Source of the DNA: Candidatus Nitrospira kreftii
Lineage (GTDB): Bacteria; Nitrospirota; Nitrospiria; Nitrospirales; Nitrospiraceae
Assembly (NCBI GenBank): GCA_014058405.1
Contig: CP047423.1
Location: forward strand, 2,046,001-2,110,000
Direction: 5' to 3'
Length of the DNA stretch: 64,000 nt
Shown here: positions 49,048-51,531 of the stretch, in pieces
Numbering within the stretch: position 1 is the stretch's first letter
Layout of the letters: the number at the start of each line of letters is the position of its first letter
Translations under genes and position numbers: made by a program
Notes under the pieces: model-generated
The model's input: only the letters and a program-made list of their open reading frames with translations
Told to the model about the DNA's origin: nothing
The model's database searches: none

Positions 49048-50112
49048 TCAGCCCCTCACCGGCCTTTTTCGCAACGGTTTACTTAAAGAGGATTGGATCA
49101 TCAGCTCTCTGACCAGGTGTTCCAGATCTTGGTTCAACAGCAGCACGGTGGCTCGAAGCGAATCCAGCATCTGCGTCCGCCGCTGAAGGTCATTGGTTGT
49201 GTACACCCCTCCATCACCAAAGAATAATTGGGCGCGAGTCGCTTCTAACTCAGATCCTTCGTCTCCGAGTCGTCCCTCCTTCCTCCACCCGGCAACAGTT
49301 TCGTCTCGGTAAGTTCGTGGGCTTTCGCCTTCGCGCATTGGTCTCCGCAGAAAGCGCCAGATGGACGGCGGTAGGTACACCGGATCTTCCGTGTCCTCCC
49401 AGATTTCCCGCAAGATGTTATCGGGATGTCGGAAGGATTCCTCGGTTTCGTGATACAGTGCACTGACACCGAGCGCTCCGGCTACGGTCCCACCAATGAT
49501 AGAGACAATGCCTTCGCCTACTCCACTGATATCGGCGATCGCGAGACCTCCCGACGCAACCGCTGCTGCTGCACCAACGATAATGGCAAGCAGCGTTTGT
49601 CGTCTGATCTGATCGTTCTCAACCACTCGGAGACGGTCCACGACCTGTGAGGATCGCTCAATTTCACAGGTGGTTTTCGCTACGGCACTTGACACTTCCA
49701 GCATCGCGAGTATCACGCGACTAAGGATCTCCTGGTGCACCGCCTGTAAGCGAAGCGCGTCTGAAGCTGAATTGATTGATCGCTCCTCTAGAATTTCGAA
49801 CTGATTGAGGAGAGAGAGCACATCAATCACCTGAGCCGTCTGAATAGCACGCCACGAGAACGACGTCGGCATGCGCCCGGTGGATTCCCTGGCTAACCGG
49901 TCGCTACGCCGGTGTTCGAATACCGTCAGGGGAATTTTTCGAAGTTCAACCTGTTCGGGAGGAGCGCTACACTGTCGTACGCCGGTCTCCGTGGAATGTT
50001 GTCTGGTGAAATCCGAAATGAGGGTGCAGCCGTCACAGAAGACCAGCAATAAGGAGCCGAAAAACAACCGCACACTACAGTTTGCGTCCCCTAACCCCAT
50101 GCCACTGTTCAT
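49048..50112 (-). CDS. Hypothetical envelope protein with helical core
   Basis: 354 residues. A hydrophobic N-terminus (RLFFGSLLLVFCDGC) resembles a lipoprotein or membrane signal, although the lipobox is poor. A glycine-rich hydrophobic pair (about residues 180-220, LLAIIVGAAAAVASGGLAIA, IIGGTVAGALGVSALY) lies between polar helices. The C-terminal part is charged and helical. No domain recognised. Confidence 0.7.
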   Translation of the reverse strand: MNSGMGLGDANCSVRLFFGSLLLVFCDGCTLISDFTRQHSTETGVRQCSAPPEQVELRKIPLTVFEHRRSDRLARESTGRMPTSFSWRAIQTAQVIDVLSLLNQFEILEERSINSASDALRLQAVHQEILSRVILAMLEVSSAVAKTTCEIERSSQVVDRLRVVENDQIRRQTLLAIIVGAAAAVASGGLAIADISGVGEGIVSIIGGTVAGALGVSALYHETEESFRHPDNILREIWEDTEDPVYLPPSIWRFLRRPMREGESPRTYRDETVAGWRKEGRLGDEGSELEATRAQLFFGDGGVYTTNDLQRRTQMLDSLRATVLLLNQDLEHLVRELMIQSSLSKPLRKRPVRG

Positions 50113-50227
50113 TCTCCCATCTCATGAGACCGAACGACGCATCACGCGTACAACACTGAGCGACTCTCACATGGAAACACTTGGCGAAACATGGAGCTCC
50201 TAGCTGTGGCTTTTTACTGATCCGGGC

Positions 50228-50371
50228 TCAGTGGGATGAATGGCATCCCACATGCCCACAGCCACAGGTCCCTCCACGTGACGTTGCATCTCGACACGCT
50301 TCTGAGCAGTAGTCCTGGCCACCTTTGACCGGACATGTACACTGGGGATGGCTGCACTTCTTATCATTCAT
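50228..50371 (-). CDS. Bacterial metallothionein-like protein (47 aa)
   Basis: Found by hand; it is below usual ORF length cut-offs. ATG 50371 has GGAGG six bases away. The sequence MNDKKCSHPQCTCPVKGGQD continues YCSEACRDATSRGGTCGCGH and ends VGCHSSH. It has eight Cys (residues 6, 11, 13, 22, 26, 36, 38, 43) and three or four His, with the YCSEAC and CGCGHVGC motifs known from prokaryotic metallothioneins of the SmtA family. Expected to bind zinc or copper. Stop 50228. Confidence 0.8.
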   Translation of the reverse strand: MNDKKCSHPQCTCPVKGGQDYCSEACRDATSRGGTCGCGHVGCHSSH

Positions 50372-50751
50372 GGTGTCCTCCATTTTCTCGGAGATTCAGT
50401 CATGATTATAGATAGCAGCATCCACGATAACTGAGTTTGAGTAGGGGCTATACTAGTCCTATCCCTAGTCGCCGATCGTCACATCACGCCTGTAGCGAGA
50501 AAGGAAAAGCAGGATGGCAACTGTTCGAGCAAGAAAGCTCCAAAAGTTCTAAAATACAGCTGCATTGTTATGAAACTCGTCAACTGGGCAAGGTATTTTT
50601 CAGGACATACACTATCCAAGTTAATGAGACAATGCTCCACAATCTGCAGAGAACTTCATTCACTCCCCGATTCTCGCCCTAGGGCTATTCCCAGGATTAC
50701 TCCGCCGAGATGATGTTTTAAAGTGGAAGACCTATGGTACGATGAGCAAAT
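50372..50751. other. Gap without convincing gene
   Basis: 380 bases between the metallothionein gene and the palindrome before the response regulator. An 81-codon frame exists here, but its composition is unconvincing and it has no ribosome site. It probably holds the metallothionein promoter near its start. Confidence 0.5.
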
Positions 50752-50774
50752 CTAGTTAGATGTAATCTAATTAG
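50752..50774. promoter_or_regulatory. Candidate operator palindrome upstream of response regulator
   Basis: CTAGTTAGAT at 50752-50761 and ATCTAATTAG at 50765-50774 form a 10-bp inverted repeat with one mismatch around GTA, typical of a dimeric regulator site. It lies about 75 bases before the response regulator start at 50848. Confidence 0.5.
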
Positions 50775-50781
50775 TTTTGTT

Positions 50782-50825
50782 GGCGCCTTGTTCGCATATT
50801 TTTCTGTGAACGCGTAGAAGGCGCC
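50782..50825 (+). promoter_or_regulatory. Hairpin in leader before response regulator
   Basis: GGCGCCTT (50782-50789) pairs with AAGGCGCC (50818-50825). A shorter internal pair GTTC (50790-50793) and GAAC (50808-50811) may extend it. It lies 22 bases before ATG 50848 and could act in the mRNA leader. There is no T run. Confidence 0.45.
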
Positions 50826-50847
50826 TTAAACCACTTAAACCAATAAT

Positions 50848-51531
50848 GTGTGCGTAAAGCCTATGTCGCTGCTCAGGCCAACAGTCCTCATTGCCGATGA
50901 CCATCCGCTTGTGGCTGAAGGGCTCCAACAGCTGCTCGAGTCTGACTTTGAAATCCTGGGAACAGTGGGTAACGGCGATGAGTTAGTGCAACAGGCGCAA
51001 TCGTTGCGACCTGACATCGTTCTGCTCGATGCCGTGATGCCTCCTGACAATGGCTTCAGCACGGCAAGACGCCTGAAAGAAACCGTACCTCACTGCCGAG
51101 TTATTTTCGTGACGATGCTTGATGAGCCGACGCACGTGAGTGAGGCATTTCGTGTCGGGGCCAAGGGGTATGTGTTAAAACAATCCATCACGTCAGATCT
51201 GATCAACGCTATGCGGGCCGTGCTCCGTAATGAGCAGTATCTCTCCCCAGGGATTATGGGGGAAGTTCGTGAATCGATAGAATACCCCTGGACCAAACCC
51301 GGCGGATTTACCGTTCAACTGACTGAGCGACAACGTCAGATCCTTCAGCTTCTCTCCCGGGGCGATTCCACAAAAGTGATCGCAGGAACGCTGAAGATTT
51401 CTCCCAAGACCGTCCTGTTTCACAAAACCAGCATCTTTAGGAAGATAGGAGTGCGGTCACCCAGCGACCTCACGAAGTTCGCTCTCACCCACGGGCTAAC
51501 ATCCCTTTCGACTTCGAAACGAGATCATTAA
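50848..51531 (+). CDS. NarL/FixJ-family response regulator
   Basis: 227 residues. Receiver domain with acidic pair DDHPLVAEGLQQLLES, phosphoacceptor Asp in PDIVLLDAVMPPDNG and Lys in GYVLKQSI. GerE output domain: LTERQRQILQLLSRGDSTKV, then ISPKTVLFHKTSIFRKIGVR. No histidine kinase is adjacent, so it is an orphan. An ATG five codons later (50863) is an alternative start. It converges with a similar regulator at 51603. Confidence 0.92.
   Translation: MCVKPMSLLRPTVLIADDHPLVAEGLQQLLESDFEILGTVGNGDELVQQAQSLRPDIVLLDAVMPPDNGFSTARRLKETVPHCRVIFVTMLDEPTHVSEAFRVGAKGYVLKQSITSDLINAMRAVLRNEQYLSPGIMGEVRESIEYPWTKPGGFTVQLTERQRQILQLLSRGDSTKVIAGTLKISPKTVLFHKTSIFRKIGVRSPSDLTKFALTHGLTSLSTSKRDH

Follow-up and report, generated by a model that had tools for sequence, protein, structure and literature searches.

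A compact gene of probable metallothionein type, divergent from curated models, in Candidatus Nitrospira kreftii

The described proteins closest to the one reported here are two bacterial metallothioneins: SmtA of Synechococcus elongatus PCC 7942 (PDB 1JJD), together with its cyanobacterial relatives, and PflQ2MT of Pseudomonas (PDB 6GRV, 6GV6, 6GV7, 6GW8), together with PmtA. PflQ2MT binds three Zn and SmtA four, according to PMC10612145 and PMC7387436. The latter source describes the PflQ2MT cluster as Cys9His and reports that the Pseudomonas metallothionein gene is induced in stationary phase and aids long-term starvation survival, not metal resistance. Our literature search, which worked from titles and the opening of abstracts and left subscription papers mostly uncovered, found none that deals with a metallothionein of Nitrospira; one may have been described elsewhere.

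We analysed a window of 64,000 nucleotides from the genome of Candidatus Nitrospira kreftii, which consists of one contig of 4,125,728 bases. On the minus strand, positions 50228-50371 (stop codon included) encode MNDKKCSHPQCTCPVKGGQDYCSEACRDATSRGGTCGCGHVGCHSSH, a protein of 47 amino acids with eight Cys that runs from MNDKKC to HSSH, and which we identified by its open reading frame, its homologues and its profile match to bacterial metallothioneins. The translation bears out the preliminary description of a 47-residue frame with eight Cys and the motifs YCSEAC and CGCGHVGC. Its claim of a good ribosome site was also accurate: GGAGG lies at 50377-50381 on the minus strand, separated by 5 nt from the ATG that begins at 50371, and of 70 distinct homologues 57 have a word resembling a Shine-Dalgarno sequence ahead of the ATG. 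An alternative in-frame ATG at 50383 would give a 51-residue form; we rejected this start because it overlaps the ribosome site and because the homologues begin at the position equivalent to 50371.

In the window, one frame of 35-80 residues has eight Cys or more, where 100 codon-block shuffles average 0.22; the motif CxHxxCxC is likewise single, against 0.05 in such shuffles. The existence of homologues in the genus and the phylum is the stronger argument that the gene is real and not a product of chance. With these homologues and their conserved ligands, the locus is shown to be a real, conserved gene.

We then assessed its relationship to known metallothioneins. The sole Pfam match is PF02069 (Metallothio_Pro), at 19.8 bits for the 47-residue protein and 20.5 bits for the 51-residue form, against a curated cut-off of 33 bits. 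At that cut-off PF02069 matches none of the 79 genomes of the genus, and no NCBIfam family matches the window protein. The protein is consequently not assignable to PF02069 as curated, and the search with the prokaryotic metallothionein model that had been proposed as a check on the gene did not reach its cut-off. For a wider comparison we collected 74 distinct copies, 67 of which form an alignment (A4), and built a separate profile of the genus (A1). Sub-threshold matches to PF02069 are present in 61 of the 67 A4 members (best E 4.4e-4). Aligned with hhalign to six SmtA-type sequences, the A4 profile gives an E value of 7.4e-10 and the genus profile 4e-11. Over the same columns the hhalign score is 44.7; the highest score reached by 100 Cys-preserving shuffles is 19.3, and that of 100 full shuffles 17.7. 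Since the score exceeds the Cys-preserving shuffles, the likeness goes beyond shared Cys content. In the PDB, the family profile ranks four metallothionein structures first (6gv7, 1jjd, 6gv6 and 6grv), placing the PflQ2MT structures among the best. The structural match is weak: the AlphaFold2 model of the window protein (pLDDT 76.6, pTM 0.49) has 6grv (Z 3.4) and 1jjd (Z 3.2) as its best two VIA rows, with a margin of only 0.3-0.5 over treble-clef rows of ribosome biogenesis, and the best E value from Foldseek is 1.3.

Judged by these profile alignments, the window protein is homologous to bacterial metallothioneins of the SmtA/PflQ2MT type, and it is very likely a divergent relative that works like one. 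The identification as a metallothionein in the preliminary description therefore holds for the kind of protein, by profile-profile homology, and fails at the level of the curated model.

Comparison of individual positions shows where the protein agrees with SmtA and where it departs from it. The Cys positions of the N-terminal block align, the model of the window protein places a helix after YCSEAC, as in SmtA, and a CGHxGC motif stands near the C-terminus. Hence the central [FY]C-x3-C of bacterial metallothioneins is present as YCSEAC, and the SmtA-like CxHxxC near the C-terminus as CGHVGC, where 1JJD has CGHTGC. The N-terminal CxCxxCxC of bacterial metallothioneins is replaced by CxHxxCxC: the window protein has CSHPQCTC where SmtA has CACxxCxC, so that the second Cys of SmtA is a His here. 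From the CxC to the YC cysteine there are 8 residues in the window protein and 15 in SmtA, and the loop is 7-8 residues shorter than in SmtA or PflQ2MT. The window protein also has an extra Cys two residues before the Cys of SmtA's CGH, and it lacks the His that follows CAD. What we take to be the last Cys of SmtA has no counterpart in it, and the ligand set is Cys8His2 instead of Cys9His2. PflQ2MT differs by its CGCPDCHC and by a longer loop and a disordered tail at the C-terminus, both of which are missing from the window protein.

These features are conserved across the family. The full Cys/His pattern, C-x-x-x2-C-x-C ... [FY]CS-x2-C ... C-x-C-x-H-x2-C, is kept in 70 of the 74 distinct copies. 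C6, C11, C13, C22, C26, C36, C38 and H40 never vary across the 67 copies of A4, and C43 is nearly invariant. At position 8, the third residue of the motif, 63 of the 70 full-pattern copies have His, 3 have Val, 3 have Asn and a single copy has Cys. Between C13 and C22 the loop has 8 residues in 62 copies and 7 in 8, as opposed to 15 in SmtA and PflQ2MT. In all 91 close pairs with dS below 1.5, dN is smaller than dS (median dN/dS 0.15); these pairs overlap and are not independent, and the window gene, too divergent for most such comparisons, takes part in few of them or none. The family members are under purifying selection.

We consider it probable that the gene encodes a compact, divergent metallothionein-type protein of the Nitrospirota with a composition of about Zn3Cys8His2, acting as a Zn(II) buffer or store and expressed under general control from a promoter of its own. 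On the alignment, C6, C11, C22 and C26 would form a treble-clef zinc site of the SmtA type, the equivalence being based on the residues that we take to be those of SmtA site A. H8, C13, C36, C38, H40 and C43 may hold about two further d10 ions, with Cys shared between metals. The whole would then approximate Zn3Cys8His2; about three Zn(II) are predicted because PflQ2MT, with Cys9His, binds three and SmtA four. The preliminary description had called the protein the only plausible high-capacity metal binder in the region. High capacity is doubtful, since ten conserved ligands point to a content of about three metal ions, as in PflQ2MT, and not more; its uniqueness applies within the window, where it is the sole small Cys-rich frame, and ends with a paralogue about 199 kb away. 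For the cellular role, Zn(II) buffering or storage appears most likely, and Cd(II) or Cu(I) is perhaps involved.

Alternatively, the protein could be a SmtA-like zinc finger, with a single structural treble-clef zinc, that binds nucleic acid or protein and stores no metal. SmtA-like zinc fingers exist, to go by a title cited in PMC10612145. The model DUF2116, a 'probable treble clef', matches 15 of the 67 members, and in the structural comparison pre-60S ribosome-biogenesis proteins, which are treble-clef proteins, rank just below the metallothioneins. However, four ligands suffice for such a finger, while six further Cys/His are conserved here (C13, C36, C38 and H40 invariant, C43 nearly so, H8 in 63 of 70), and the window protein has only 47 residues. 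The conservation of ten ligands makes a one-zinc finger the less likely reading, and we regard it as improbable.

Less probable still is a Cu(I)-binding metallothionein that serves copper handling in ammonia oxidation. The genome has a match to the ammonia monooxygenase family, and 2 of the 67 members weakly match the model of MymT, the copper metallothionein of Mycobacterium (NF052418; best E 0.0015), which is likewise small and Cys-rich. The window protein gives no match to NF052418, and both its architecture and its profile alignment are SmtA-like. A link with ammonia oxidation was tried and rejected: the gene is found in 5 of 49 genomes with ammonia monooxygenase and in 8 of 30 without it (Fisher p 0.068), a difference in the opposite direction. 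That the frame arose by chance or is a dead copy is scarcely credible. Decay is seen in some relatives (L096 and L098 broken, L005 and L018 lacking an ATG), but the window copy has an intact frame, an ATG, a ribosome site and all ligands, and its family is under purifying selection.

In its surroundings the locus differs from an smt-type one, which pairs the metallothionein gene with a divergent SmtB repressor gene. A cyanobacterial plasmid homologue has an adjacent ArsR/SmtB gene, whereas no ArsR/SmtB gene lies beside the window gene, which is thereby not an smt-type locus. Three HTH_5 matches occur in the genome, at 0.17, 0.30 and 0.62 Mb; the gene lies at 2.10 Mb, about 1.48 Mb by coordinate from the closest of them. 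There is a single FUR-family gene, at 3.08 Mb. Metal-specific induction is doubtful because no SmtB-type regulator is nearby, but a metal regulator may act in trans. The Pseudomonas metallothioneins likewise have no adjacent metal regulator, according to PMC7387436. The neighbours of the window gene include two LuxR-type response regulators, a CBS-domain protein, MgtC and a hemerythrin; by analogy, a stress or starvation role resembling that in Pseudomonas may be inferred. Expression would probably proceed from the gene's own promoter under general control, with no adjacent metal sensor.

Upstream of the gene, a consensus scan found no sigma-70 promoter. By eye, a TATAAT hexamer at 50405-50410 on the minus strand is a weak candidate -10 box with no -35 partner. 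Between the gene and a divergent LuxR-type response regulator gene lies a 26-bp palindrome, TAGGG-N5-ACTAGT-N5-CCCTA (50442-50467, no strand assigned), a candidate operator picked after being seen. It is unique, with one site against 0.05 expected when up to three mismatches are allowed, and its half-site is not enriched across the genome. No Rfam element was found at 49900-51000.

The gene is patchily distributed. Within the genus, a protein search finds homologues in 13 of 79 genomes, at most six matches in any one of them, and a profile search agrees on 13 of 79; the remaining 66 lack it. Across the phylum, 43 of 395 sampled genomes have homologues. The 14 relatives on named contigs comprise 12 from Nitrospira MAGs, 1 from Nitrospiraceae and 1 from an Acidobacteria MAG, and the nearest relative of the window gene within the genus is 53% identical. 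From the origin of these relatives and the ammonia monooxygenase match of the genome, we take the host to be a comammox Nitrospira. The paralogue in the same genome (G000:C1:2295074-2295208) is followed on the same strand by a pyridine-nucleotide-disulphide oxidoreductase gene, with a superoxide dismutase gene nearby. Among plasmids we found no match for the window protein or for a relative; a relative gave none among phages, and viral contigs gave none.

The decayed and start-less copies named above, all within the genus, indicate frequent gain and loss. In genome G005, four contigs (L022, L023, L025 and L026) break off within nearly identical metallothionein-like genes; part of the copy number in this genome is therefore probably an artefact of assembly. 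A DNA block of 300-600 bp, about 67-82% identical, lies upstream of the copies in L102, L104, L109, L112, L114, L096 and L110; it also occurs at L103:1741-2019, away from any metallothionein-like copy. The copies seem to have spread together with this block.

No conserved neighbourhood was found around the window copy: its context comparison brought up only matches of a general kind, and a metal gene was not recognised among them. Copies from another genus do have one, with a kinase-like frame common to about 15 loci besides the window. Next to the gene, window positions 49048-50112 encode a 354-residue protein with no Pfam match, relatives of which are found in 41 of 147 sampled genomes of the family, in multiple copies in some. 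Four Nitrospira loci have a conserved hydrophobic protein of 35 residues, probably a single-pass membrane protein, about 1-4 kb from their metallothionein-like genes (L109:4119-4223 on the minus strand, with a strong ribosome site ahead; L106:1891-1995, L112:5900-6004 and L107:9127-9228 on the plus strand).

Whether these proteins make up a compact metallothionein class of the Nitrospirota's own is evenly balanced in our judgement. Such a class would be defined by a shortened finger loop and by a Cys8His2 set within about 46 residues, would fall below current models, would often be multicopy, and would be controlled by stress or growth phase and not by a metal sensor. The Nitrospira copies escape the curated Pfam and NCBIfam models at their cut-offs, and the finding, if true, would give grounds to relax or rebuild PF02069. 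It would also provide an SmtA-type cluster of very small size, in which a Cys has naturally been exchanged for His, for comparison with SmtA and PflQ2MT. If metal is bound as predicted, metallothioneins would extend into the nitrite-oxidising and comammox Nitrospira.
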